The notes under the pieces: generated by a model | Seen by the model: only the letters and a program-made list of their open reading frames with translations | Databases searched by the model: none | What the model was told of the DNA's origin: nothing | Program-made: the position numbers and the translations under genes | Origin: Zygnema cylindricum | Lineage: Eukaryota; Streptophyta; Zygnematophyceae; Zygnematales; Zygnemataceae | Reading direction: 5' to 3' | Length of the DNA: 64,000 nt | NCBI GenBank assembly: GCA_037447655.1 | Contig: JBBHKE010001989.1 | Coordinates: 189,779-253,778, forward strand | In this document: positions 824 to 63,732 of the stretch, piece after piece | Layout: every line of letters starts with the position of its first letter | Position numbering within the stretch: position 1 is the stretch's first letter

Positions 824-1900
824 TGTTGAAAAAGGGTATTTTATAATCTACCTTCTTAGTCAGTCCATAGGCATTGTACGTTTCTCATACTTGTCGTTGT
901 CATTGAGAACTGGCAGGCTGCCCCGGGAGATGAGAAGACAGGCAGAATACATAGCTCCTGCAAAAGATGGGCTGCAAGACACAGGTTTTGATCTTGTGAC
1001 CACTAAAGCCGTACGGAATAGCTATCCACCTTATCTGGTATGTCTTGATGAAACGATGCTTGTAAATATTTTATAAGTACTTGAGAAGGGACGTGGCGAC
1101 ACATTAAGCGCCTTACGAAACGAAATGAAACATTGAAACGTATAGTATCGCACGAAAGACTGTACCGCACGAAATGAAGAAACGAAATCAAATGTCGTTT
1201 AGTGATCAACGGTTCGCAAAGAAAGACGAAACTTCAATGGACAAACGGGATGACGATCATAGAAATTCAACGGTTAACACGGAACGATGACCGTTAAATT
1301 TCAACGGTCAACATTATTCGGCGCGCCATCAGATCGAACGATCGACATTGATCCTTGAATTAGGAACGGAGGGTACGCGTGAGTGCAGGCATGACAGAAA
1401 GGTTTTTTTGGGAGCACACCGCCAAAGTGGAGGAAAATGACACGTGGCACCATCATATAGGATTTCGGAGAAGAAAAGGACAGAAATGGAGACGACTTAT
1501 TTGCCACGTGGCAACCCGAGAGTGGTGCCGAATATTTCCGTACATATAGTACAGCGACGACCTTACTTTGTATGTACATTATTTAGCGTACGATGTTTTG
1601 ATTAGTCTAGAGGAGTTATGAGTAGGTTCCTAGGACTTAAACAATTTTTTGAAAGCCCTCTCTCCCAGAGGCCATCTGTATAAATATGGTGTCTTTGAAT
1701 AGCCATAACTTAATGGTTAGGTGAGCAAATTCAGTTATTCTTTTTGTTGCGGACTCAAGGGTGTCAAGGCTACACATGGGTGTAGTCGGTCAGAGTTTTT
1801 GCGTGCACTTATTCATTGCCAAAGTCAAAAGTGCAAATATTGTCCTAGAGGCTTATATAAGTTGGACAATCTCTGTACTAATGGAGGTCACACAATTTCA
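824..1900 (+). mobile_element. Solo copia LTR inside element A gag
   Basis: A 1077-bp LTR starting TGTTGAAAAA and ending ATTTCA, flanked on both sides by TCGCT (819-823 and 1901-1905). Removing it restores the gag context, so it is a complete insertion reduced to one LTR by LTR-LTR recombination. It has the usual U3 layout, a TATA-like region near 1678-1686, the leader block (GACTCAAGGG near 1755) and the terminal ATGGAGGTC block at 1881. It is diverged from the other LTRs here and forms its own subfamily. Confidence 0.9.
962..1048 (-). other. tRNA-like unit in solo LTR (antisense)
   Basis: On the minus strand an A-box-like segment (near 1030-1045) is followed by a B-box/T-arm-like segment containing GATCAAAACC (about 981-996) and then a TTTT run (complement of 962-965). 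The T-stem is imperfect here. No acceptor stem is seen. Confidence 0.5.
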
Positions 1901-5821: not shown

Positions 5822-5914
5822 AAAAGGAGTATGTCTGAACTAGGATTTGATCCTGGTACCTGCCAACCGTCAAAGCGTCGGTAGCCGGTAGACTTATCCG
5901 TTAAGTCTAGACAG
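5822..5914 (-). other. tRNA-like unit in B 5' LTR (antisense)
   Basis: Minus strand: A-box-like ACTTAACGGATAAG (near 5890-5905), a T-arm with 5-bp stem around loop ATCAAAT (5842-5858) and a TTTT run (complement of 5822-5825). TGTCT and AGACA at the two ends could form a partial acceptor stem. A mature tRNA is not implied. Confidence 0.6.
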
Positions 5915-11668: not shown

Positions 11669-12728
11669 TGTATAAATCGATGGTTCTTTTATTATTTTCT
11701 AGGTCTAAATTGGAATACAGAAAGAAGCCGAGGCAGTCTGCCTCTTACTTCTCTCTCCAACTCCCACACTTGTTGCAGTCACTGAGAAGTTGGAGAGGAA
11801 GCTAGAGCCATGGCTACATAGGCTATCCAGAGGTTTACGGGAAATAGATTAGTTGATTTACGGATAGGTAGGTTTATTTGCTAAAATGAGTATGTCGGAA
11901 CCAGGATCTGATACTGGTACGTGCCGACCGTCAGACCGCCGAAAGCCGGTAGGCTTATCCGTTAAGTCTACACAGACATACTAGAAGGTTTGATATTTAT
12001 TTAAATGTTGCCACGTAGGAAAATTCATTTAACGGCGGATGTTTACGGATACATAGATCCAGTTATATAAAAGTACGGATTACGGTATAGATAAGAAACG
12101 AGTACCGCGCATTTTGTTTCTTTTACGAAACAAATACCGCACAAGCATTTATGACGGCTACGATTGAAATCTGCATTCAATCGGACGGCCGAAAAGAAAG
12201 CCGAGATCGCGGAAGAGATTCTCGGCGGTTTGTGGTCATCGCCACATCGGATGACACGTGGCACGATAACGTTGGATCCCAGCATCTCCGAGGATTACGG
12301 GACCGAATCCGAATATGACATGTGTCAACAATTAGGCCATGTCGTACAATATCCGTACATAAAGTACACCGGCAGCTGTACTTTTGTGTACTGCAATGTA
12401 ATATGATTGGTGGCGTACATCAGTAGATAGAGTTTTAGAGAGGGATAGGAGTTAGAAAAAATTGGTAGATAGGACCATCTCTCCCAGAGAGCTTCTATAC
12501 AAAAGGTAAACTTTGACCCTCTATAACTTACTGCTCAGGGGAGCAAATTCAGAGATTCTTTTTGCTATCGACTCAGGGGAGTCTTGCCTTCACAGGGGTG
12601 AAGGTGGTCAGAGTTTTTGTTTGCCAAGGTGGCAGTTATTCGTGCTGAAAGACAAAGGGGTCCAGGGTTATCCTAGAGGCTTCGTGTGAGCTGCTTACTC
12701 TGAGGTCCTATGGAGGTCTCAGAGTTTA
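11669..12728 (+). repeat. Element B 3' LTR
   Basis: A 1060-bp partner of 5608-6834 without the U5 duplication. Starts TGTATAAATCG; its terminus reads GAGTTTA against GAGTTGCA in the 5' copy. It has three clear leader hairpins: TGCTC-AGGG-GAGCA (near 12532), GACTC-AGGG-GAGTC (near 12571) and CTTCAC-AGGG-GTGAAG (near 12588). Confidence 0.9.
11883..11975 (-). other. tRNA-like unit in B 3' LTR (antisense)
   Basis: Minus strand: A-box-like CTTAACGGATAAG, T-arm-like segment with loop ATCAGAT and a four-pair stem, then a TTTT run (complement near 11883). It has diverged from the 5' LTR copy but keeps the elements. Confidence 0.55.
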
Positions 12729-13096: not shown

Positions 13097-14073
13097 TGTT
13101 GAAATAGGTGTTTTTCTATTTGTATTTTCTAGGTCAATTTTAAAGGAACAAAATAAAAGATGTTAGCTAGGATCTAACCCTTCTCTTTCTAGTCTCCATA
13201 TTTGTTGTATTTAGTGATGACCGGAGAGAGAGAGAGAGTGAGAGATTGATCGATGGCTACCTAAGTAGCTAAAGAGGATAGACGATAGTCTGAGAAGACC
13301 GTACCAAAAAGACAAGAACGAACTAGGCATTGATCCTAGTCCCTATGGTTTGTCGGAAAAGCTGGCAACGTTGTCATATAGTCTAAGACATGTGCTGAGA
13401 TACATAGGGTTAGATAACAACTTAAAGATGAATGTGCAAAATAAATAAATTAACTAGGTTTACACGGAATCTCACATAGAATCGGAGGAAATTTCTTATG
13501 CACGCGTGTACCGCATTAAACAAATTGATCGAACATTAATTTGAACGGCGGACATCAAATGTCAATATGGATCAGACGGCTTACATGGAAACCGATATCA
13601 TGGAATGGCCATTTTGGCGTTTTATGGACGTTATGTCACAAGGTGAAACTTGGCGCGGCATCATTGGAAAGCACAATGTGTGGAAGCATTAGGACAAGTC
13701 TAAGTGTGATAGACGTCTTCACCATGGCTATAACGTACTTTCACCGTATAGAAGGTACCACGGGACCTGTACCTTCTTGTACGGTACAGTACGGTGATAA
13801 GTGCTCTACAAAAGTAAATTGGGGTTTAGAGATTGGTTTTGGGACTTAGGAATTTCTTAGGGTTGCCACCTCTCTCTTAAAGTTCTCTTGTATAAATAGG
13901 CATTTTTGCCTCCTCATAACGAATCGCCTGTTTGGGCGTTTTAAGAGATTTCTTCTCTAATGGGTTCAAGGGAGTCCAGACTACACAAGGGTGTAGTCAT
14001 CAACATATTTTGCCTACCAGGGTGGCAGTTATTTTAAGGCAAAGGGGTTCATTGAAATTCACTAGAGGCTTCA
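13097..14073 (+). repeat. Element A 3' LTR (end cut off)
   Basis: Starts TGTTGAAATAGG. It carries a perfect TATA box TATAAATA (13891-13898), a GTACGGTACAGTACGGTG block (about 13778-13796) and the hairpin GACTACAC-AAGG-GTGTAGTC (about 13979-13998), the longest version of that stem in the window. The sequence stops at GAGGCTTCA; the last 60 or so bases of the LTR are absent and antisense LTR-like DNA follows. Confidence 0.85.
13305..13390 (-). other. tRNA-like unit in A 3' LTR (antisense)
   Basis: Minus strand: A-box-like segment near 13375-13388, then a perfect five-pair T-arm CTAGG/CCTAG around a seven-base loop (13323-13339), then a TTTTT run (complement of 13306-13310). Confidence 0.6.
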
Positions 14074-16345: not shown

Positions 16346-17347
16346 TGTTGAAATTTATAGATTTCTAGAGTATTTTCTAGGTTTAAATATGTTTTTATAA
16401 AAGGAAAAAGAAAAGGACGGACAACCTGCCTCCACCTCCGCTCTCTAGCCCCCATACTTGCTGTAGTCACTGAGCTAGAGCCATGGCTGCCTAAGCTTCC
16501 AAGAGAGACAAACAGTTGACCTTTGGTAGATTTACCAAAAGGATTGACGGACGCAGGTTTTGATCTTGGAACCTGGCGTCTGTCAAAGTAGATGTTAGCT
16601 TTGTCTATATCTAGGACCAGTGCTAAAATATATAGGGTACGATAACTACTTAAACACAAACAAGTTGGCAGGTTCATTTAACACAATGAATAGATTCGTA
16701 GAACATAGAATTAGTTATGTATTTTACTGATTAAAGTACCGGGCGAAATAAATATATTACTCATTTGTTTCGACGCACAAAGTTAAAAGCCAATTCAAAT
16801 CGGACGACCAAGATAGAAGCCGATATCACGGAATGGACTTTTTGGCAGTTTTCAGTCGCCACCACACCAAGGGACACGTGGAGACATATCATTTGCCTGC
16901 GCCATCTCCGAAGAATTTTAGAGCGAGTCAAGATGTGGCAGGCGTCACCTCTTTGGCCATGCCGTAAAATGGTCGTACAGAAACTACTTCGGCATCGGTA
17001 CCTTTCTATACGACGAACTATTTTGATTGGTGCCGTACACTAGTAGAGGGATTAGAGAAGGAATTTAGACTTAGTAAAATCTAAGGGAGGCAGCCTCTCT
17101 CCCAGAATGCATCTGTACAAATAGGTCATCTTTGACCCTTTATAGTTTACTCTTTAGGGAGCAAATTTAGAGGTTCTTTTTGCTATCAAATCATGCTAGT
17201 CTTCTCCTCACAGGGGTTAAGGTGGTTAGAGTTTTTGTCTTCCAAGGTGGCAACTTTTTTCTTTTGAAACACAAAGGGGTCAGGGTTATCCTATAGGCTT
17301 CGTGTGAGTTGCTTACTCTGAGGACCAATAAAGGTCTTAGAGTTGCA
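16346..17347 (+). repeat. Element C 5' LTR
   Basis: Starts TGTTGAAATTTATAG, ends GAGTTGCA. It has the CT block, the CCATGGC core (near 16481), the antisense tRNA-like unit, a GACACGTGG G-box-like site (near 16874) and GTAC motifs (near 16975-17040). Its first leader hairpin is degraded. The terminal ATG is changed to ATA. Confidence 0.85.
16537..16620 (-). other. tRNA-like unit in C 5' LTR (antisense)
   Basis: Minus strand: AGACAAAGCTAAC D-arm-like region, T-arm-like segment around GATCAAAACC with an imperfect stem, then TTTT (complement of 16537-16540). Confidence 0.5.
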
Positions 17348-21909: not shown

Positions 21910-21995
21910 AAAAGGATTGTCTGACCCAAGATTTGATCTTGGTACCTAACGTCTGTCAAAGTAGCCGTTAGCTTTGTCTTATAGTCTAGAACCAG
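21910..21995 (-). other. tRNA-like unit in C 3' LTR (antisense)
   Basis: Minus strand: perfect five-pair T-arm CCAAG/CTTGG around loop ATCAAAT (21928-21944), D-arm-like AGACAAAGC upstream and a TTTT run (complement of 21910-21913). The stem differs from CCGGG/CCCGG in element E by paired changes. Confidence 0.65.
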
Positions 21996-23393: not shown

Positions 23394-24284
23394 TGTTGAA
23401 AAGAGGTAATTAATAATTAACTTCTTTCTATTTTCGTTATACTTTAAAAAGAGAGAGTGAGTATCAAAGGCACGCCATGGCTGCCGCCATATTTAAAAAG
23501 TGGCAGATTTTTGAAGTAGAGGATATTTTATTAAAATGTTGCCTACATCCAGATTTGAACATGAGTGTGTGGTTCACTATATAGTTGTTAGCCTTATCCA
23601 CTAAAGAGTCACCGAAACGATACACATGACGAATTTCAAAGATATATAAACATTAACGCGACGGCTAATTAACACCAAACTAACGAAGAGGAACAATTCA
23701 TGCACGTACGCGAATCTGAACCGTGTAAAATATGTTTTGATCAGACATCCAACATTATAGCCCCCACCCAAAGTGATCTTTTTGCGGCATTCGGAGATTG
23801 CGTCACGCGGTGCCACGTGGTGCCACATTATTTGATACCGAAGAAGATGGGAGGAGGAACCATGGCTCCCGATTTGAGAGGTGTCACCTTGTAAACCATG
23901 TTGTACAATGGACGTACAATAAGTACATCGCCCATTGTACCTTCTGGTACTATATAGTGTTCCTATTAGACTAGGGTTTAGTAGTAGGTATTCGTGAGTA
24001 GGCAGACCAAGACTTAGTGATATTTAGGTACTTCTTCAAAATAGAGCTTGTAACTATAAAGGTCATCTTTGACCGGCCATAACTTACTGCTCAATGGAGC
24101 AAATTCAGTGATTCTTTTTGCGTTTAACACAAAGAAGTCTTGTCCTCACAAGGGTGAGGGTGGTCAGAATATTTTTGTGCCTAAGCGGCACTTATTTAGT
24201 CGGAAAGTGGAAGGGGCAAATATAATCCTAGTGGCTTTACATTGGCTGCTTATTCTTTGGGTTAATAAAGACCACAAAATTTCA
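23394..24284 (+). repeat. Element D 5' LTR
   Basis: Ends AAATTTCA before the primer site. It has the CCATGGC core near 23476, a CCACGTGG G-box near 23814 and the hairpin CCTCAC-AAGG-GTGAGG (near 24142-24157). The terminal ATG is ATA here but ATG in the 3' LTR. Confidence 0.9.
23533..23614 (-). other. tRNA-like unit in D 5' LTR (antisense)
   Basis: Minus strand: A-box-like TTTAGTGGATAAGGC (near 23590-23608), B-box-like GTTCAAATC (near 23553) and a TTTT run (complement of 23533-23536). The T-stem is weak. Confidence 0.5.
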
Positions 24285-26246: not shown

Positions 26247-27286
26247 TGTTGAAATTGAAAATTTTTTATAGTATTTTCTAGGTTTAAATATGTTAGTATA
26301 AAAGAAAAGAAAAGGACAAGCAACCTGCCTCCACCTCCTCTCTCTATCCCCAATACTTGTTGTAGTCTCAAAAGGATAGATAGGGTAGTTGATCCATAGC
26401 TGCCTTAGTTCAACAGGCAGTTATTTTTAGTAGGTTACTAGAAATATTACCTGACGGACCCGGGATTTGATCCCGGTACCTGTGGTTCGTCAACTTGGCC
26501 GATAGCGGTCAGCTTTATCCTATTAGACTAAGACCAATGCTAAATGCTAAAGTATGTGATAGATATATATTTATTTAGGGAGGAACAAACCCATTTAACT
26601 AAAATTATATACGGCATGCATAGATACAGTTTTATGAAAGTATAAAGTACGATTCTATTTCAAAACGGATACAACGCATTTTGTTTCGGCAACGAAACAA
26701 ATGTCGCGCAAGTATTTATAACGGCTGTGATTGCGTCTCGCTGCAAATCCAACGGCGCACATCATCCCCGAAATTCCGGAGTGGTCACTTTGGCGTTTTG
26801 TGACGTTGCATGACCTGGAGCCACATGGAGAGATGACATTCGGTCATAGGAATTCTGAGTAATGTACGGACGAGTGAAAAACAGACACACGTCCGCTTAA
26901 TAGCCTTGTCGTACATAGGCCGTACAAAAGGTACACCGGCAGTAGTACTTTTTGGTACGATACAGTAATCTGATTGGTCCGTACTGCAATAGGTAGAAGT
27001 TATTAGAGGGAATCAGGACTTAGAAAATTTTGGTAGGTAGTCACCTCTCTTCCTTTGAGAGTTTGTATGAATTGGCATTTTTACTGCCTCATAACTTATC
27101 GGCTTGTTGGCCGTTTTCAGTGATTCTTTTTGCTACAGACTCAGGGGAGTCCAGGCTGCATAGGGGTGCAGTCAAACTGTCATTTTGCCTTCCTGGACAG
27201 CAATGGTTGTGGCTTGAAGTGGGTTAGTTAAATACTAGATAGAGGCTTCCTATATTCTGTGGTCCAATGGACGACACAGAATTGCA
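26247..27286 (+). repeat. Element E 5' LTR
   Basis: 1040 bp, starts TGTTGAAATTG, ends GAATTGCA. It contains the CT block, the antisense tRNA-like unit, the GTACAAAAGGTAC / GTACTTTTTGGTAC inverted pair (about 26932-26968), a CCAAT-type ATTGG (near 26972) and the hairpin GACTC-AGGG-GAGTC (near 27137). The ATG at 27267 in the terminus opens gag. Confidence 0.9.
26455..26540 (-). other. tRNA-like unit in E 5' LTR (antisense)
   Basis: Minus strand: A-box-like TTAGTCTAATAGGATAAAGC (near 26512-26531) and a perfect five-pair T-arm CCGGG/CCCGG with loop ATCAAAT (26460-26476). No close T-run terminator is seen in this family, unlike the others. Confidence 0.6.
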
Positions 27287-28370
27287 CATTATGGGCCCAC
27301 CCTCTAGGGTGCCCACCTTCAATGGATCTGGGTTCATCTATTGGGAAGCCATGATGATGGGAGCTTTGTGGGAAAAACGATATTGGAGTATCGTCAGTGG
27401 AGAAGAAAAACGTCCACGTTCGGGAACTCCACCAAGATTTGGAGGAGTAAGGTTTCCTGCTACAACGGATGCCTCAGCGGAGGAGGCAGATGATGGGGAC
27501 AGCAGTGTGTCCGAAAAGGGGAAAGGGAAGGAGACCTCCCTTACTCCTATTGCCACAGTACCGGGAGCGGCGACTGTGAAGACCGCGGAGAACAATACTC
27601 AAATGTGGGAGGATGTAAACATGGCTGCCAAGAACTTTATTTTGAGGCACCTCACTCAAGCTCTAGCCACCCCTCATCTTCACATTTACAAGGCCGAGGA
27701 GTTGTGGGTGAGTTTGGTGGAGACTTATAGAGCTAGAACTATTCAGGAGCTCCAGTTGGCTGAGCAAAAGCTTGTGAGTTACACTTACAAAGGAGGAAAG
27801 ATGTTAGATTACTGTAATGATCTTTCTTGTTTGTATATGGAGATGGAAAGTGCCGGGTGGACAGGTACAATGAAAATGAAAGTTAACACCCTTATAAAGA
27901 AGTTACCAGATGTGTTCGAGAACATAGTGTACCGAGTACAAGAAATGCCTGATAGTTCATGGAAATGGAACACAGTGGTCAGGATGATACTTGTGCACAA
28001 AAACACGGTGGAGATTAGGAGAGGAAGAAAGAGCATTCAAGCCCTAGCAGAAGGAGGGGACAGATGGGGGAAGGACCCGAAGAAACCATACAAAGGGGAT
28101 AGAGATCAGTCTGGAGGACCTAGGCCCCCAAAGGGTCTTTGTCATTTTTGCAAAAAACTGAGACACTTCATCGCAGATTGTGTCAAGCTGTCTGATCTGA
28201 GGCTCCAAGAGAACCGTGGAGGGAGTTCTTCCGGAGGGAAGAAAAAGGCACTTGCGGTTACAAAAATGACAGGAGAAATCGAGGATGAGTCCCCTGAGGA
28301 GGATGGGGAGCTTCTTTTTGACAAAAGTCTGGAGGAGAAGGAGATCCCTCAGAGACACAAGTGTGTTTTG
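27267..28370 (+). pseudogene. Element E gag (nearly open)
   Basis: Opens at ATG 27267 in the LTR and is uninterrupted for about 370 codons. It has the GPPSRVPTFNGSGFIYW capsid start, the MWEDVNMAAKNFILRHLTQAL block and a zinc knuckle at about 28139-28180 reading CHFCKKLRHFIADC (CCHC residues present, Gly before His changed to Arg). A single-base shift near 28370 puts protease out of frame. It is the most complete gag in the window. Confidence 0.85.
27287..27299 (+). promoter_or_regulatory. Primer-binding site, element E
   Basis: CATTATGGGCCCA; the first two bases differ from the GGTTATGGGCCCA consensus while the ATG core is kept. It lies in the gag frame. Confidence 0.75.
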
Positions 28371-31600: not shown

Positions 31601-32430
31601 TGTTGAAATAAATAGATTTCTATAGTATTTTCTAGGTTTAAATATGTTAGTATAAAAGAAAGGAAAAGGACAGGCAACCTGCCTCCCCCTCCTCTCTCTA
31701 TCCCCCATACTTGTTGTAGTCACTGAAGGATAGAGAGGGTGGTTGATCCATGGCTGCCTTAGTTCAACAGGCAGTTATTTTTAGCAGGTTACTAAAAATA
31801 TTACCAGACGGACTTGGGATTTGATCCCGGTACCTACGGTTTGTCAAGTTGGCCGATAGCGGTCAGCTTTATCCTATTAGACTATGACCAATGCTAAATG
31901 CTATAGTATGTGATAGATATATATTTATTTAGAGAGGAACAAATCCATTTAACTAAAATTGTATACGGCATGCATAGATACAATTTTATGAAAGTACAAA
32001 GTACGATTCTATTTCAAAACGGATACAACGCATTTTGTTTCGACATGGAAACAAATGTCGCGCAAGTATTTATAACGGCTATGATTGCGTCTCGCTGCAA
32101 ATCTAGCGGCGCACATCATCGCCAAAATTCCGGAGTGGTCACTTTGGCATTTTGTGACGTGGCATGACCTAGAGCCACGTGGAGAGATGACATTCGGTCA
32201 TAGGAATTTTGAGGAATGACATTTTTACTGCCTCATAACATATCGGCTTGTTGGCCGTTTTCAGTGATTCTTTTTGCTACGGACTCATGGGAGTCCAGGC
32301 TGCACAGAGGTGCAGCCAAACTATCATTTTGCCTTCCTGGATAGCAATGGTTGTGGCTTGAAGTGGGTTAGTTAAATACTATATAGAGGCTTCCTATATT
32401 CTATGGTCCAATGGAGGACACAGAATTATT
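31601..32430 (+). repeat. Element E 3' LTR with internal deletion
   Basis: Starts TGTTGAAATAAATAG. It matches the 5' LTR up to about 32218 and again from about 32219 (CATTTTTACTGCC). The 5' LTR segment from about 26862 to 27066 is missing; that segment held the GTAC pairs, CCAAT-type box and TATA-like region. The terminus reads GAATTATT against GAATTGCA in the 5' LTR. Confidence 0.85.
31807..31890 (-). other. tRNA-like unit in E 3' LTR (antisense)
   Basis: Minus strand copy of the 26455-26540 unit, with the T-arm CCGGG ATCAAAT CCCAA slightly altered (wobble pairs) and the A-box-like segment kept. Confidence 0.55.
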
Positions 32431-34868: not shown

Positions 34869-35758
34869 TGTTGAAAAGAGGTAATTAATAGTTCACTTCT
34901 TTCTATTTTAGTTATACTTTAAAATGAGAGAGTGAGGATCAAAGGCACGCCATGGCTGCCGCCATATTTAGAAAGTGGCATATTTTGAAGTAGATGATAT
35001 TTTATTAAAATGTTCCATACATCTGGATTTAAACTTGGGTGTTTCGTTCATTGTATAGTCGTTTGCCATATCCACTAAGGCGTCACCGAAACGATACACA
35101 TGACGGATTTCAAAGATATATAAACATTATCGTGACGGCTAATTAACATCAAACGAACGAAGAGGAACAATTCATGCACGTACGCGAATCTGAACCATGT
35201 AAAATATGTTTTGATCAGACGCCAAGCATTATAGCCGCCACCCAAAGTGAGATTTTGGCGGCATTCAGAGATTCTGTCACGCGGTGCCACGCGGTGCCTG
35301 ATTATTTGATACCAAAGAAGATGGGAGGAGAAACCATGGCTCCCGATTTGAGAGGTGTCACCTTGTAGACCATGTTGTACAATAGACGTACAATAAGTAC
35401 ATCGCCCATTGTACCTTCTGGTACTATATAGTGTTCCTATTGGACTACGGTTTAGTAGTAGGTAGTCGTGAGTAGGCAGACCAAGACTTAGTGATATTTA
35501 GGTACCTCTCTCTAAGAGAGCTTGTAACTATAAAAGTCATCTTTGACCAGCCATAACTTACTGCTCAAAAGAGCAAATTCAGCGATTCTTTTTGCGTTTG
35601 ACTGAAGGGTGTCTGTTCCTCACAGGGGTGAGGGTGGTCATAATATTTGTGTGCCTGTGTGGCACTTATTCACTGGGAAAGTGGAAGGCTCAAATATTAT
35701 CCTAGAGCCTTTACATTGGTTGCTTATTCTATGGGTTAATGGAGACCACCAAATTTTA
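34869..35758 (+). repeat. Element D 3' LTR
   Basis: 890 bp, preceded by AATTAAGGGGAG. It ends AAATTTTA where the 5' LTR has AAATTTCA. The terminal ATG (ATGGAGACC, near 35739) is intact. Leader hairpins are CCTCAC-AGGG-GTGAGG (near 35616-35631) and GTGCC-TGTGT-GGCAC (near 35650-35664). Confidence 0.9.
35007..35095 (-). other. tRNA-like unit in D 3' LTR (antisense)
   Basis: Minus strand: A-box-like CTTAGTGGATATGGC, B-box-like GTTTAAATCC and TTTT (complement of 35007-35010). The T-stem is weak. Confidence 0.45.
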
Positions 35759-40234: not shown

Positions 40235-41260
40235 TGCAATTCTAAGACCTCCATAAGTCCTCAGAATAGGCATATCACACGAAGCCTCTAAGATAACCCT
40301 GCCCCTTTGTGTTTCGACAAAAATAACTTTCACCATAGCATACAATAATTCTGACCACCTTCATTTCTGTGAAGATAAGACTCCTTTGAGTCGATTGCAA
40401 AAAGAATCTATAAATTTTCTCCCCTGAGCAGTAAGTTATGAAGGGTCAAAGTTGACATTTTGTACAGAAGCGCTTTGGGAGAAAAAGGACTACCTACCAA
40501 ATTTTCTAAGTCCTAAATCCTGCTATAAACCCTCTACTACTAGAGTACGGCACCAATCAAAATAATGTGTGGTACAGAAAGGTACAGGTGGCGAAGTACT
40601 TTCTGTACGATCATCGTACAGCATCGCCAAAAAGATGACGCTTACCATCTTCGGATTTGTTACCATATTCTGCGGAGATATGGCAAGTTCATAAGGGCGT
40701 GCCACGTGTCACTTAAGGTGGCGGTGACCTAAAATTGCCAAAACGCCTATTCCGCCATCTCGCCACCTATAGTGGACGTTTAATCAAATCGGATTCCAAT
40801 TCTAGCCGTCGAAAACAAATGCGCGGTATTTTTTTCGCGAATTATATTAAATCGTATTATACTAAATTGTATATATGTGTTAAGAATCTATTCGCGCCAT
40901 TTAATGAATTCGTCTACGTGTACACATTTATATATTTATCGAACCCTACATACTTCAACACTGATCCTAGACTAATAAGATAAATCTAACAACTACTAAC
41001 AACTTTGACGGACGGCAGGTACTAGGATCAAATCCTAGGTCTGTCAAGTTCCTTTTTGGTAAACCTACCAAACTACTACTTGTCCCTCTTTGGTCAGCAT
41101 AGGCAACCATGGCTCTAACTTCCTCTCCAACCTTTGGTGACTACGACTAGTGTGGGAGTTAAACAGAGGAGTTAGAGGTAGACCGCCCCCGCTTCTTTTC
41201 TGCATTTTAACTTTACAAGTTTTAACCTAGAAAATACTAAAATAACCTTTAATTTCTACA
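40235..41260 (-). repeat. Element G 5' LTR
   Basis: Read on the minus strand it starts TGTAGAAATTAAAGG at 41260 and ends AGAATTGCA at 40235. Leader hairpin GACTC-AAAG-GAGTC near 40382. The U3 has GTACAGAAAG / CTTTCTGTAC, a perfect 10-bp inverted pair (about 40571-40604), plus CACGTGTC G-box-like sequence near 40703. Confidence 0.85.
40960..41057 (+). other. tRNA-like unit in G LTR (antisense to LTR)
   Basis: Plus strand: A-box-like TAGACTAATAAGATAAATC (near 40969), perfect T-arm CTAGG ATCAAAT CCTAG (41022-41038) and a TTTTT terminator-like run at 41053-41057, 15 bases after the T-arm. One of the cleanest examples. Confidence 0.65.
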
Positions 41261-41627: not shown

Positions 41628-42624
41628 TGCAATTATGTGTCCTCCATTGGACCATAGAATATAGGAAGCCTCTAGATAGTATTTAACTAACCCACTTCAA
41701 GCCACAACCATTGTTGTCCAAAAAGGCAAACAGACCGTTTGAATGCATCCCTGTGCAGCTTGGACTCCCCTGAGTCTGTAGCAAAAAGAACCACTGAAAA
41801 CGGCCAACCAGCCGATTAGTTATGAGGCAGTAAAAATTCCAATTTGTACAAACTCTCAAAGGGAGAGGTGACTACCTACCAAAATTTTCTAAGTCCTGAT
41901 TACCTCTAATAACTTCTATCTATTGAAGTACGGACCAATCAGATTACTGTACCGTACCAAAAAGTACTACTGCCGGTGTACCTTTTGTACAGCCTATGTA
42001 CGACAAGGCTATTAAGCGGACGCGTGTCTCTTTTTCACTCGTCCGTACGTTCCTCGGAATTCTCATGACCGAATGTCATCTCTCCACATGGCTCCAGGTC
42101 ATGCCACGTTACAAAACGCCATAGTGACCTTTCCGGGATCTCGGCGAAGACGTAAGACGTTGGATAAGAACCGGCATTAAATATTGTCCGTCGAAACCAA
42201 TGTCAGGTTTATTTGTTTCGTGCGCGATCCAGTCCGCACTGAATTTAACCTGATCTATGATGTTACATTTACATTTTTGTTAATCGGTTAAGGGGACGTA
42301 ATAAACTTTAAATATCAATCACACCCTATATACTCTAGCGAACATCTACAACAGACTGGTTAGAGCAGACGGCTACCCCACGCTCTACCGGTCGGGGGTT
42401 CGAGTCCTACTGAACTCAACCTTTTTGTGGAGAGTGACTTAAGGTCACTCTCTAACCCTGTCTATGGAGCTGAGGCAACCATGGCTCCATCACTTTCTCT
42501 CTCCTTCAGTGACTACAACAAGTATGGGGGTAAGAGAGAAGAGATGAAGACAAACTGCCTGCATGTTTCTTTTCCGCTAATATATTAAGACCTAGAAAAT
42601 AACAAAAAGCTAATTATTTCAACA
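41628..42624 (-). repeat. Element H 3' LTR
   Basis: 997 bp; minus strand start TGTTGAAATAATTAGC at 42624, terminus ATGGAGGACACATAATTGCA ending at 41628. It contains the GTACC...GGTAC pair (about 41962-41995), ATTGG CCAAT-type box and leader hairpins CGGC/GCCG and GACTC-AGGG-GAGTC in antisense. Confidence 0.9.
42345..42426 (+). other. tRNA-like unit in H 3' LTR (antisense to LTR)
   Basis: Plus strand: A-box-like TGGTTAGAGC (42358-42367), exact B-box consensus GGTTCGAGTCC (42397-42407) about 30 bases later, and TTTTT at 42422-42426. D-loop-like and T-loop sequences are tRNA-typical. The 3' half of the T-stem is imperfect and no acceptor stem forms. Confidence 0.65.
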
Positions 42625-46914: not shown

Positions 46915-47880
46915 AAGTGCCTTTTTCTTCCCTTCGGAAGAACCCCCTCCACAGTTCTCTTGGAGCCTCAGCTCCGACTCCTTGACACAATCTGCGATAA
47001 AGTGTCCCGGCTTTTTGCAAAAATGACTAAGGCCTTTTGGGGGCCTTGGTCCTCCAAATTGATCTCTTTCCCCTTTTTACGGTTTCTTCGGGTCTTTCCC
47101 CCATCGATCCTCTCTTGCTGCTAGAGCTTGAACACTCTTCCCTCCTCTCCTAATCTCCATGGTATTTTCTTGCACAAGTATCATCCGGACCACTATATTC
47201 CACTTCCATGCACTATGGGTCATTTCCTGTACTCGGTACACTATGTTCTCATACTCGTCTAGTAACTTCATTATGAGAGTGTTAACTTTCATTTTCATTG
47301 GACCAGTCCATCCGGCACTTTCCATCTCCATATACAAACAAGAAAGATCATTACAATAATCTAACATCTTTCCTCATTTGTAAGTGTAACTCGCTAGCTT
47401 TTGCTCGGCCAACTAGAGCTCCTAAATAGTTCCAGCTCAATAAATCTCCACCAAACTCTCCCACAGCTCCTCGGCCTTGTAAATGTGAAGATGAGGGGTG
47501 GCCAAACCTTGAGTGAGGTGTCTTAGAATGAAGTTCTTGGCAGCCATGTTTACGTATTCCCACATTTGAGTATCGTTCTCCATGGTCTTCACGGTCGTCG
47601 CTCTCGGTGCCATAGCAATAGGGGTGAGGGGTGTTTCCTTCCCTTTCCCCTTTTCGGACACATTGCTGTCCCCATCATTTGCCTCCTTCGCAGAAGCAGT
47701 CGTTACTGCAGAAAACCTAACTCCTCCAAATCTTGGCGGAATTCCCGAAGGTTGACGTTTCACTTGTCCACTTCGATACCCCATTATCGTTTTTCACACA
47801 AAGCTCTCATCATCATGGCTCCCCAATAGATGAACCCAGATCCATTGAAGGTGGGCACCCTAAAGGGTGGGCCCATAACC
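46915..47880 (-). pseudogene. Element H gag
   Basis: Follows the primer site at 47868-47880. The start block GPPFRVPTFNG is present with a shift near 47790; 47784-47437 is open with FGGVRFSAVTTASAKEAND and FILRHLTQGLATPHL; 47367-47077 is open with MLDYCNDLSCLYMEMESAG. The zinc knuckle near 47000-47040 reads SHFCKKPGHFIADC, so its first Cys is Ser. Two stops occur near 47427-47437. Confidence 0.8.
47868..47880 (-). promoter_or_regulatory. Primer-binding site, element H
   Basis: Minus strand GGTTATGGGCCCA, perfect consensus, directly after LTR end AAATTGCA. Confidence 0.85.
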
Positions 47881-48877
47881 TGCAATTTTGTGCCCTCCAT
47901 TGGACCACAGAATATAGAAAGCCTCTAGATAGTATTTAACTAACCCACTTCAAGCCACAACCACTGGTGTCCAAAAAGGCAAACTAACAGTTTGAATGCA
48001 CCCTTGTGCAGCCGAGACTCCCATGAGTTCGTAGCAAAAAGAATCACTGAAAACGGCCAACCAACCGATTAGTTATGAGGCAGTAAAAATGCCAATTTGT
48101 ATAAACTCTCAAAAGGAGATGTGACTACCTACCAAAATTTTCTAAGTCTTGATTACCTCTAATACCTTCTACCTATTGCAGTACGGACCAATCAGATTAC
48201 TGTACCGTACCAAAAAGTACTACTGCCGGTGTACCTTTTGTACGGCCTATGTACGACAAGGCTATTAAACAGACGCGTGTCTGCTTTTCACTCGTCCGTA
48301 CGTTCCTCGGAATTCTCATGACCGAATGTCATCTCTCCACGTGGCTCCAGGTCATGCCACGTCACAAAACGCCAAAGTGACCTTTCCGGGATCTCGGCGA
48401 AGACGTAAGCCGTTGGATAAGAACCGGCATTAAATATCGGCCGTCGAAACAAATGTCAGATTTATTTGTTTCATGCGAGATCCAGTCCGCACTGAATTTA
48501 ACATGATCTATGATGTTACATTTACATTTCCGTTAATCGGTTTAGGGGACGTAATATACTTTAAATATCAATCACACCCTATATACTCTAGCGAACATCT
48601 ACAACAGATTGGTTAGATCGGACGGCTACGCCACGCTCTACCGGTCGAGGGTTCAAATCCTGCTGGACTCAACCTTTTTGTAGGGAGTGACTTAAGGTCA
48701 CCCTCTAACCCTGTCTATGGAGCTGAGGCATCCATGGCTCCATCACTTTCTCGCACCTTTAGTGACTACAACAAGTATGAGGGTAAGAGAGATGAGATGA
48801 TGACAAGTTGCCTGCATGTTTCTTTTGCGCTAATATATTAAGACCTAGAAAATAACAAAAAGCTATTTATTTCAACA
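47881..48877 (-). repeat. Element H 5' LTR
   Basis: 997 bp, nearly collinear with 41628-42624. The terminus ATGGAGGGCACAAAATTGCA supplies the first in-frame ATG of gag (near 47900). GTACC/GGTAC pair near 48207-48242. Confidence 0.9.
48597..48679 (+). other. tRNA-like unit in H 5' LTR (antisense to LTR)
   Basis: Plus strand: A-box-like TTGGTTAGATC, B-box GGTTCAAATCC (exact consensus, near 48650-48660) and TTTTT at 48674-48678. Confidence 0.65.
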
Positions 48878-50368: not shown

Positions 50369-51367
50369 TGTTGAAATCACTAGATTTATAGAGTATTTTC
50401 TAGGTCTGAATAGTATAATAAATAAAGAAAATAAAAGCGCATGCAGTTTGCCTCCACCTTTTTCCTCTATCCCCCTTACTTGTTGTAGTCACTGAAAGAG
50501 AGAGTGGTGGAGCCATGGGTGCCTCAGCTCCATAGGCAAGACTAAAGAGTGACGTAAGTCATTCTCAACAAAAAGGTTGAGTCCGACAGGACTTGAACCT
50601 CCGACCGGCAGAGCGCGGCGTAGCCGTCAACTCTAACTAGTCTGTCGTAGGAGTTCATTAAAGTACATAGGGTGTGATAATAACTTAAACTATATTATGA
50701 TCTTTCATCCAATTAACGGGCATATGAATGAAGGGACAAAGAACAAGTTAATATTTAGTGCGAACGTGATCCCGCACGAAACAAATGAATCAGACATTTG
50801 TTTCAACGGCTAACATTTAATGTCGGTTTTTATCCAACGGCACATATCGCCGTCGAGATCCCAGAATGGTCACTTTGGCGTTTTTGGACGTGGCATGACC
50901 TGGCGCCAAGTGGAGAGATAATATTTGATCGTGAGAATTCTGGAGAACATACCGACGAGTACCATGTGGACAAGCTTCCATTCAATGGCCTTGTCGTACA
51001 CAGGCTGTACAGAAAAGACATCGGCCATAGTACTTTTCTGTACTTTACAATTATTTGATTGGATTGTACTGTACTAGATAGGGGTTGTGAGAGGGAAGTA
51101 GGACTTAGCTTTTTTTAGACAGTCACCTCTCTCTTTTGAGAGTTTGTATAAATAGGCATCTTTGCCACCTCATAACTTATCGCCTGGCTGGCCGTTTTCA
51201 GTGATTTTTTTTGCTACAGACTTAGGGGAGTCCAGACTACACAGGGATACAGTCAAATTGTCAATTTGTTTGCTTTGGCAGCAGCGGTTGTGGCTGAAAG
51301 TGGGTTAGTTAAAAACTTCATAGAGGCTTCTTGAATTCTGTAGCACAATGGAGGTCACAGAATTGCA
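50369..51367 (+). repeat. Element J 3' LTR
   Basis: 999 bp, starts TGTTGAAATCAC after AAAATAAGGGGAG, ends ATGGAGGTCACAGAATTGCA. TATA box TATAAATA at 51147-51154. In U3 a stretch reading EIPEWSLWRF is shared with other families. Confidence 0.9.
50570..50655 (-). other. tRNA-like unit in J 3' LTR (antisense)
   Basis: Minus strand: A-box-like CTAGTTAGAG, B-box GGTTCAAGTCC (complement near 50588-50598) and TTTTT (complement of 50571-50575). Confidence 0.65.
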
Positions 51368-51996
51368 AATAGTACCACGTAAGATAAGATCGTATCTTGA
51401 AAATCGTCAAATGTTTTTCTCACCGACCAACTTCAACTTCAAATCTTTATTTGCGTACTATGTACATGTGGACCAGGTTAGCGTCCGACATCATTTTTGT
51501 ACTCTTTCTAGACCCATTATCAGATACCAACTCAAGTTTTTTTAGGGTTTTTTACTTTTATGTTTTTTCGCGTGACCAATGAGCGCTGCCACAAATAGTG
51601 TGACAAATGGGCGCTAACAAAAATAGCGTGACGAAAGTTTTTTACGTGATTACTTTTGTGATTTCAATTAGGATTTTTGAATGGATGTATCATGTGCGAA
51701 ATTATTCGATTTCCGTTGGTTACCATCTTGACACGTATGTTCATTATCCAACGTGTCGCGGTTTATTTTTTTTATGTAAATGGTGATGTACATCACCATT
51801 TACATAAACTTTCGAAGCGAATGCTTCGAGAAAACAAATTGAACAGTCATTATTACCTCCCAGACCGTTGGAGAATTTTGGCAAGATTCTTTTTAATGTT
51901 GTTCGCGTATAAAAATAAAATAAGCCGTATGGACTGGTACGGATAAGCGCCGATTTCTGTAAACTACCCCACTTTTCGTCTGATTCAACGCCACCC
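51368..51996. mobile_element. Tourist-like MITE, first of a tandem pair (left end missing)
   Basis: Aligns along its length with 52111-52706 of the next copy (GTACCAC-GTAAG block, ATAGCGTGA block, central palindrome, right terminus CCACCC). About the first 110 bp is cut off by element J. Separated from the second copy by a single shared TTA (51997-51999). Confidence 0.75.
51771..51808. repeat. Perfect 38-bp palindrome in MITE
   Basis: TTTATGTAAATGGTGATGT followed at once by its exact reverse complement, no spacer. The second MITE copy has a longer 50-bp imperfect version (52470-52519) with an extra CCTCGCGAGG core. Confidence 0.95.
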
Positions 51997-51999
51997 TTA

Positions 52000-52706
52000 G
52001 GGTGAAGTTCCAAATTATGACTTTTTGTAATTGTACGGCCAACATTACAAAATGCTACATTTTTAACAATGTTTTATCGAGTTTGTAATCCACGTGGTCA
52101 AAATTTAATGGTACCACATAAGTTAAGGTCGTATATTGAAAATTGTCAATGATATTCACATTGACAAAAAAAAATCATTTGCGTACTATGTCATCATACA
52201 ATACAACGTTTGTACTATTTGCATACGTCTTTTCAAATACCACCTCATTTTTTTAGGGTTCTTGGTTTTTGCGTGACGAATGAGCGTTGCCATAAATAGT
52301 GTGTAGAATGGGCGCCAACAAAAATAGCGTGAAAAAGTGAGTTACGAGATTTTTTTTATTGTTTTCAGTTTTATTTTTGTATGTATGTATTATGTGCGAA
52401 TTTTTTTGATTTCCGTTGGTTGCCCTCTTGACACGTATGACCGTTATCCAACGTGGCGCAACTCTAATTTTTATGTAAATAATGATGTACCTCGCGAGGT
52501 ATATCACCATTTACATAAACTTTTGAAGCGAATGCTCCGCGAAAAAATATCCAACGGTCATTTTTAACTCCCATACCTTTGGATAATATTGGAGGGTTTC
52601 TTGCAATGTAGTTTCCGGGTAAAAACAACATAAGAGGTACGATGTAGAACGGAGAAGTCTGAATTTCTGTCAAAAACCTCATTTTTCGTCTAATGGAACT
52701 TCACCC
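52000..52706. mobile_element. Tourist-like MITE, second of a tandem pair, 707 bp
   Basis: Termini GGGTGAAGTTCCA and TGGAACTTCACCC, flanked by TTA on both sides (51997-51999, 52707-52709). No protein-coding potential. Same length and related termini as 15564-16270. Confidence 0.8.
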
Positions 52707-52709
52707 TTA

Positions 52710-53817: not shown

Positions 53818-54818
53818 TGTCCTCCATTGGACCACAGAATACAGAAAGCCTCTAGATAGTATTTAACTAACCCACTTCAAGCCACAACCACTGGTGTCCA
53901 GGAAGGCAAAATGACAGTTTGATTGCACCCTTGTGCAGCCTGGACTCCCCTGAGCCCGTAGCAAAAAGAATCACTGAAAACGGCCAAGAAGCCGATAGGT
54001 TATGAGCCGGCAAAAAAATGCCAATTTATACAAAGCTCTCTTACAGAGAGAGGTGACTACCTACCAAAATTTCCTTAGTCCTAAACCTCTCTCACAGCCC
54101 CTATCTACTGAAGTACGAACCAATCATATAACGGTAAAGTACAGAAATGGTACTACGGCTGATGTTCTTTTTGTACGGCAGGTGTACGATAAGGCTACTT
54201 AGTGGACGCGTGTCACTTTTCCACTCGTTCATATATTCTCCGGAATTCCGCAACCGAATGTCATCCTTCCACGCGGTGCTAGGTCATGCCACGTCCATAA
54301 AAGCCAAAGTGACCATTCCGGGATCTCGACGATGACGTGTGCCATTGGATTAAATCCGACATCAATTATCGACCGTTGAAACGAATGTCCGATTCATTTG
54401 TTTTGTGCGAAATGAGGTTCGCACTAAACCTTAACAAGTTCTATGTTCGTTCGTCCATATTTTAGTTAAATGGTTTTAGTATTATACAATAGGTTAAATA
54501 CTTATCAAACCCTATATCTCTTAACGGACTTCTACGACAGACTGGTTAGAGCTTAAGGTTACGCCGCACTCTGCCGGTAGGGGGTTCGAGTCCTGCCGGA
54601 CTCAATCTTTTGTTGAGAGTGACTTAAGTCACTCTTTAGTCCTTCCTATGGAGCTGAGGCAGCCATGGCTCCATCGCTCTCTCTCTCTCCTTCAGTGACT
54701 ACAACAAGTATGGGGGCAAGAGAGAAGAGATGGAGGCAAGCTGCCTGCATTTTCTTTATCTGTTTCCGCTAATTATTTTAGACCTAGAAAATGCCAAAAA
54801 AAACTACTTATTTGAACA
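53818..54818 (-). mobile_element. Solo copia LTR K (minus strand)
   Basis: 1001 bp of the H/J LTR family: minus strand start TGTTCAAATAAGTAG, end ATGGAGGACACATAATTGCA. Flanks TTCCT (53813-53817) and TTCCC (54819-54823) form a target duplication with one mismatch. All family marks are present: CCATGGC core, antisense tRNA-like unit, GTAC motifs, TATA-like region and hairpins. Confidence 0.85.
54527..54612 (+). other. tRNA-like unit in solo LTR K (antisense to LTR)
   Basis: Plus strand: A-box-like ACTGGTTAGAGC (54541-54552), exact B-box GGTTCGAGTCC and a TTTT run at 54608-54611. Confidence 0.65.

Positions 54819-56856: not shown

Positions 56857-63732
<6,876 letters not shown>

Follow-up and report, generated by a model that had tools for sequence, protein, structure and literature searches.

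An antisense tRNA-like block in U3 of coding copia LTRs of Zygnema cylindricum as a putative Pol III unit

What is the tRNA-like block at 42345..42426, inside the LTR of a copia retrotransposon of Zygnema cylindricum, and could it be a Pol III unit that reads against the element carrying it? All positions refer to the window, the whole 64,000-nucleotide stretch of DNA analysed here. The window holds many copia-type pieces, with the Pfam domains rve, RVT_2 and gag_pre-integrs in 5 of the 8 ORFs scanned, and its copia LTRs are about 1 kb long and followed by a primer binding site (PBS), GGTTATGGGCCCACC, which we take to be complementary to tRNA-iMet, of the half-tRNA type of initiator-Met primer. 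The PBS, in part the window ORFs, and the domain order of a copy elsewhere in the genome (stretch L033, group G3; gag_2, rve and RVT_2 in order over three ORFs) identify the elements as copia LTR retrotransposons.

The preliminary description listed 15 blocks, and all 15 were found in place. They were aligned with 19 LTR copies from elsewhere in the 352.8 Mb assembly, and the resulting 34 copies fall into 24 main, 5 H/J/K, 4 G3 and 1 G4. Throughout this alignment the block sits antisense in U3, and a conserved sense TATA-like element follows it in the sense direction. Features were placed from the alignment unless another basis is given:
42345..42426, plus strand: antisense tRNA-like putative Pol III unit, H/J/K, in the 3′ LTR of a minus-strand copia element (from sequence, 27 family copies and column constraint)
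42347..42366, plus strand: A-box or D-arm-like part, with G19 at 42359 and A21 at 42362 (from the alignment and the group's D-arm similarity to tRNA 5′ halves)
42397..42407, plus strand: exact B box, GGTTCGAGTCC (from sequence)
42422..42426, plus strand: TTTTT, putative Pol III terminator, 14 nt past the B box (from sequence)
42305..42320, minus strand: TATA-like element in sense orientation, A/T-rich, which follows the block in the sense direction (alignment columns 32–43, conserved in all groups)
42324..42332, minus strand: sense TATATAGGG motif, present in many main and H/J/K copies
48597..48679, plus strand: putative unit in the 5′ LTR of the minus-strand element that holds the 42345 block, exact B box (from the alignment and a PBS at 47880, minus strand)
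50570..50655, minus strand: putative unit, H/J/K family, exact B box
54527..54612, plus strand: putative unit, the solo K of the preliminary description, exact B box
962..1048, minus strand: putative unit in a divergent LTR (group G4), the weakest match of the set
5822..5914, minus strand: putative unit, main group (from the alignment, with 20 further family copies)
11883..11975, minus strand: putative unit, main group, partner LTR of 5822; one change breaks the core
13305..13390, minus strand: putative unit, main group, loose core
16537..16620, minus strand: putative unit, main group, loose core
21910..21995, minus strand: putative unit, main group
23533..23614, minus strand: putative unit, group G3; other parts of the genome hold a young family of which this copy is an old relative
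26455..26540, minus strand: putative unit in a chimeric LTR, with a block of main type and a T run of just three bases (TTT)
31807..31890, minus strand: putative unit, partner LTR of 26455
35007..35095, minus strand: putative unit, group G3, partner LTR of 23533; one change breaks the core
40960..41057, plus strand: putative unit, main group, in a minus-strand element

The antisense orientation was likewise confirmed. Eight PBS matches were found in eight sources. Seven of them correspond in position to an opposite-strand block, and no block LTR precedes the eighth (553) inside the window; the orientation of the remaining blocks was set by LTR alignment. The description had also placed the block across divergent families; it is indeed common to all groups, but as one inherited trait and not as 14 events. 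The LTR at 26247–27290 is chimeric: its block stretch matches main-group 40960 at 42/60 and 39/60 positions and H/J/K 42345 at 29/58 and 28/52, and from about 26787 onward it is 82–97% like an H/J/K LTR (breakpoint positions are approximate). Parts of U3, including the putative Pol III block, seem to have been exchanged between LTR groups.

The exact B box GGTTCRANTCC is present in 4 of the 15 window copies (42345, 48597, 50570 and 54527). Among all 34 copies it is exact in six and GTTCRA occurs in ten, with T54 being an A in 23, and positions G53, T55, C56, A58 and C61 are each kept in 32–34. The A-box claim stood in part: G19 and A21 are invariant, but the box is degenerate overall. Compared with the A-box consensus, TRGYNNARNNGG, an A at the 14/15 place is found in 31/34 copies and G18 in 26/34, and the other positions are variable. 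A T run of at least four bases, no farther than 35 nt from the B box, occurs in 14 of the 15 window copies (26455 has TTT). In the full set, T4+ lies just downstream of the B box, as in a type-2 Pol III unit, in 33/34 copies, compared with 23% of antisense stretches of 35 nt from LTRs of the window, and its distance past C62 is 14–18 nt in 32 copies and 24 nt in one.

A relaxed A-B-T pattern, drawn up after the blocks had been seen, gave seven matches in the window (six sites), all inside blocks, where 0.37 were expected; a SINE-type pattern was barely enriched (four matches, one of them outside the blocks, versus 1.7 expected). A B-box template scored highest at the block's place in antisense (6.63), with the next antisense score at 4.03 and the best sense score at 4.74. 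By eye, only 8 of 17 nuclear-type tRNA genes of this genome (L049–L064 and L066) have T4 within 30 nt downstream; Pol III may terminate laxly here, or farther downstream.

LTRs were also retrieved through their flanks alone. None of the 33 LTRs retrieved has an empty place. Among the 18 outside the window, the strict B-box core is present in 16, four of the flank queries having been taken from outside copies themselves; the 15 window LTRs comprise ten with a strict, three with a loose and two with a broken core. A main-group family fetched through R/U5 keeps the strict core in 13 of 20 copies. By eye, one of these copies (L088) has other sequence at the block and two (L080 and L069) are truncated or deleted; such losses are expected, because the copies match the query at 90–94%.

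The columns that are fixed across the four groups are mostly tRNA invariants: A14/R15 (31/34), G19 and A21 (34/34 each), G53 (33/34), T55 (34/34), C56 (32/34), A58 (33/34) and C61 (33/34), and the T-run columns are equally fixed (33, 34 and 34 of 34). Seven of the eight columns with a between-group identity of at least 0.9 are on a strict tRNA list that takes in 11 of 65 columns (Fisher p 3.6e-6), and a broader list gave p 0.0003; the six p-values from three cut-offs and two lists range from 3.6e-6 to 0.0021. Because the tRNA register was placed by eye, p-values are optimistic throughout. On a tree built from the flanks, the listed columns undergo fewer changes (p 4.9e-5), mostly 0–2 against a median of 5 elsewhere; one copy, L033:3862, groups with G3 in this tree, probably owing to a nested G3 insertion in its downstream flank. 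T54 (four changes), G18 (six) and Y60 (five) depart from the tRNA rule, R57 varies between A and G only, and N59 varies among three bases. Four equally fixed columns are off the tRNA list: the T adjoining A21 and the CTA of a GGCTA motif that follows the D-arm. In this triplet (alignment columns 100–102), which the tRNA list does not explain, C is found in 31, T in 33 and A in 28 of the 34 copies.

The statement that the block is conserved within a diverged U3 is true of the main group and fails when main is compared with H/J/K. Among five main-group representatives, block identity is 0.59–0.77 and that of the neighbours 0.44–0.53. Between eight main and four H/J/K copies, the block falls to 0.39–0.50, its direct neighbours are at 0.36–0.53, and many other LTR parts reach 0.55–0.79, which places the block among the least similar parts of the LTR. 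Whole-block conservation was therefore rejected as evidence. Within H/J/K, identity is 0.963 in the block versus 0.938 outside it, CpG sites excluded, and 12% of windows score higher; this profile comprises 27 copies and leaves out L005_1, L022_1, w50570 and w54527, as well as L015 and L025, whose matches were too short for inclusion.

A family that apparently moved very recently, to judge from its near-identical copies, offers a closer view. With an R/U5 query from L033, the best 40 of 3627 candidate places are all 99–100% identical, and by eye 26 of these 40 form 13 pairs about 5320 bp apart. The G3 copy at L033:3989–10000 (G000:C1496, about 84–90 kb) lies in or beside a main-group LTR. We examined 22 young G3 blocks (20 places and two L033 copies), of which 21 match RVTGG..GTTCRA..TTTT, and assigned them by eye to subfamilies a, b and c. 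When one representative per subfamily is compared, the block differs at 8/95 (a–b), 9/95 (a–c) and 13/95 (b–c) positions, and the rest of the LTR at 9, 11 and 12 of 768, the latter counts being inflated by a badly aligned first 50 bp. The excess in the block is 7.2-fold (p 1.7e-4), 6.6-fold (p 9.9e-5) and 8.8-fold (p 2.7e-7), respectively, and 60-bp steps on either side of it show 0–2 differences.

These changes mostly spare the putative promoter boxes. None of the 16 variable columns falls in 26 core columns (p 8e-4), which were chosen after the alignment was seen; a repeat using complete consensus boxes (12 bases for A, 11 for B) together with the T run placed 2 of the 16 in 27 columns (p 0.04). 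One of the two, a C-to-T change at position 60, brings the sequence closer to the consensus. In a set of 21 young copies (omitting L094, which lacks 6 nt around the A box), a single core column is variable, and it varies in both LTRs of seemingly one element. The changed block could have been brought in by recombination with another lineage. No fast-changing block body was found in the 27-copy H/J/K profile.

Similarity to tRNAs was assessed against 16 of 20 fetched tRNAs, six of the 16 being Arg; L065–L068 were dropped as organelle-like or, for L066, as a near-copy of L064. The D-arm 40-mers of main, H/J/K and G3 beat 100/100 shuffles as group means, and those of G4 show no similarity to these tRNAs (55/100 shuffles); one of eight flank controls (two segments in each of four groups) came near, at 1/40 in main. 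The best D-arm match is tRNA-Arg in 18/24 main and 4/4 G3 copies, and tRNA-Phe, Asn or Lys in H/J/K. As a whole block, two of the four G3 copies score 40 and 44 against tRNA-Arg(TCG), where shuffles reach about 22 (0/100); only 10/34 copies are similar to a tRNA at 1/100 shuffles or better, and in 7/34 the sense strand outscores the antisense strand. Over positions 48–67, tRNA entropy and LTR change correlate with rho 0.56, other offsets reaching up to 0.67 antisense and 0.68 sense (L065, L067 and L068 dropped). ARAGORN found no tRNA genes in the window or in 20 stretches, and RF00005 was absent at E ≤10 from the window, from 42320–42440 and from L033:4100–4220. A tRNA gene was thus rejected; with no cloverleaf, the block is therefore seen as what is left of a promoter, comparable to the situation in SINEs.

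Column constraint, tRNA similarity and the young family together support a putative tRNA-type promoter and terminator. Mostly kept box positions and a kept stop signal, in a block whose remainder changes, suggest that a short antisense RNA is made, and an antisense Pol III unit is the simplest account of the retained A-box positions, B-box positions and terminator. Our preferred reading, to which we give slightly better than even credence, is that the block is a tRNA-derived type-2 Pol III unit, antisense in coding copia elements, which yields a short RNA against U3. An ancestral copia element would have taken up a tRNA-Arg-like sequence, antisense, in U3 just upstream of the Pol II TATA. This would have been kept as a type-2 unit, with the A box in the D-arm part, the B box in the T-arm part and a T4–5 terminator mostly 14–18 nt beyond the B box. 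The unit would be transcribed in the direction leading away from the sense start, into an RNA of roughly 90–105 nt. This RNA would be complementary to U3, which the genomic RNA of the element also contains in its 3′ part. TFIIIC binding, transcription by Pol III and a regulatory role of the RNA are what we infer from this arrangement. The preliminary description was largely right in what it observed, confirmed in part, and its interpretation is partly supported.

The main rival, which we consider unlikely, is a TFIIIC-binding element without a useful transcript that opens or insulates U3 for the sense Pol II promoter; extra-TFIIIC sites and SINE-derived boundaries are known to keep chromatin open or to insulate it. 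A block placed immediately ahead of the sense TATA-like element, as it is in all groups, would suit such a role, B-box positions are better kept than A-box positions in the 34 copies, and a freely changing body is expected. However, the T run, which TFIIIC binding does not need, is kept in 33/34 copies at near-fixed spacing, and a free body explains the fast change in the young family only if nearly all of the remaining LTR, with its 0–2 differences per 60 bp, is constrained. The T run and the fast body weigh against this rival while leaving it some probability. If the antisense Pol III unit is the correct reading, its RNA might also serve as a trans-acting identity tag that holds down elements of its own type through pairing with U3, an extension that we regard as rather doubtful and that draws on the antisense RNAs that set plasmid incompatibility. 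New subfamilies that change the RNA body and keep promoter and terminator would escape control, which would explain near-identical young subfamilies that differ mainly in the block.

The paired T-stem changes noted in the description have modest support in the main group, but no RNA-strand-specific pairing was found. In main only, the named helices are paired in 76.2% of cells (slid controls ≤45.1%, shuffled 71.4%, 0/500), with 23 double-change cells versus 14.0 shuffled (1/500) and a covariation score of 0.188 versus 0.137 (0/500); support was weak from pairs changed in both partners (35/500) and from additional pair types (306/500). Mispairs are evenly G-U (35) and A-C (33; p 0.90), and RNAalifold chose other helices than those named, so a structured RNA under strand-specific selection is unsupported, and structure plays no part in the argument for the preferred reading. 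In H/J/K, two adjacent hairpins precede the T run, and the same stretch has a fold z of −7.0 antisense and −5.6 sense. Three consecutive inverted repeats occupy U3 at 42345–42456, two in the block and one beside it at about 42430–42456.

In a second alternative, the T-arm-like motif is a palindrome bound by a Pol II factor that acts as a dimer, and the sense promoter uses the nested inverted repeats as paired cis-elements. The T-arm palindrome with outer-arm inverted repeats in main, the three tandem inverted repeats in H/J/K and pairing that shows no preference for an RNA strand would all agree with it. Three of the four B-box dyad pairs change evenly on both sides (53/61, one and one; 54/60, four and five; 52/62, eight and nine), and because of these pairs the dyad counts alone leave the palindrome standing, although T55 has no changes and its partner A59 has four. 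However, G19, A21 and the T run lie outside the palindrome and are equally invariant, the outer arms change sequence while pairing, and the tRNA similarity of the D-arm is left unexplained; we consider this alternative improbable. A functionless fossil tRNA or SINE insertion, passively carried since an LTR ancestor, would fit the weak tRNA likeness of many main-group copies and the seemingly free decay of immobile ones (strict core in 13/20 family copies), but is very improbable given that listed columns with mostly 0–2 changes stand beside others with a median of 5 on one tree, and that the chosen box cores are unchanged in young, fast-changing blocks.

Among LTR elements, the Pol III promoters known to us belong to short elements that lack coding regions (Cassandra, Helenus) or produce miRNAs in some animal retroviruses, and we know of no tRNA origin or antisense orientation of the foamy virus Pol III cassette. 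tRNA-derived plant SINEs, for which RVTGG/GTTCRA serves as a search motif, share with the block their A/B box spacing, a degenerate A box and the lack of a cloverleaf; unlike SINEs, the block has a fixed place in LTRs, and it is the copia element that copies it. For Ty1, an antisense RNA from the element is proposed to control copy number. An element-derived antisense RNA may have a similar limiting role here, but the Ty1 RNA is longer and is made by Pol II from the coding region.

Cassandra, named earlier as a known analogue, is not the closest one: the LTRs of Helenus TRIMs carry tRNA-like sequences (PMC10886601). As described there, these have an A and a B box, mostly without a functional tRNA; several families occur per genome, and many fungal ones use primers from the tRNA anticodon region. 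They are non-autonomous, of 311–1263 bp, with Selaginella the sole plant case in that account, and their length is tied there to Pol III processivity, such that autonomous partners must use Pol II and coding partners are unlikely to share long LTR stretches with the TRIMs (PMC10886601). The Helenus unit is presumably sense-oriented, given its promoter role. The copia LTRs resemble Helenus in having a tRNA-like sequence, here in 3/4 group means and 10/34 single copies, and differ from the elements of that account in that they belong to coding copia elements, are about 1 kb long, keep a TATA-like element and hold the unit in antisense (PMC10886601). Where Helenus is non-coding and at most about 1.3 kb, the window elements encode integrase and RT, and the L033 copy gag, integrase and RT. 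In the Cassandra TRIMs, which are described as non-coding, a 5S rRNA promoter in the LTR takes over from Pol II and drives transcription of the element itself (PMC10853983). Both cases place a Pol III promoter of small-RNA-gene type, a putative one here, inside an LTR, but the block is not 5S-derived, unlike that account's promoter (PMC10853983): no 5S rRNA was found in the window at E ≤10, and no Rfam family reached its gathering score. Bovine and simian foamy viruses carry a Pol III pri-miRNA cassette whose miRNA products are reported from experiment (PMC7693620); like the putative unit here, it is a short Pol III unit with one or two hairpins, which in the bovine virus lies in U3 of a coding retroelement, but these are animal retroviruses (PMC7693620).

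Helenus TRIMs are thus the closest kin of the block; what is new is its antisense placement in elements that code for proteins. An incomplete literature search turned up no title naming an antisense tRNA-like unit in coding LTR elements, which is not to claim its absence from print. If the reading is correct, a retrotransposon of the plant lineage would have a compact, built-in antisense control whose body varies by subfamily, and the locus would be a testable case for self-regulation or escape from silencing. Annotators should also be aware that such LTRs can seed SINE-like calls.

Two further features of the window were observed. At 51368–52709, a sequence of about 640 bp is repeated in tandem beside an H/J/K LTR, the two copies being imperfect and 72% identical. 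An ORF at 61903–63732 has a glycosyltransferase domain (PF03407) and starts with about 1 kb of 8–10 bp tandem repeats, over which three forward frames are open throughout; the best named relatives of its host-like protein are from zygnematophyte algae, Closterium (62% identity) and, according to 'Mesen1' labels, Mesotaenium.
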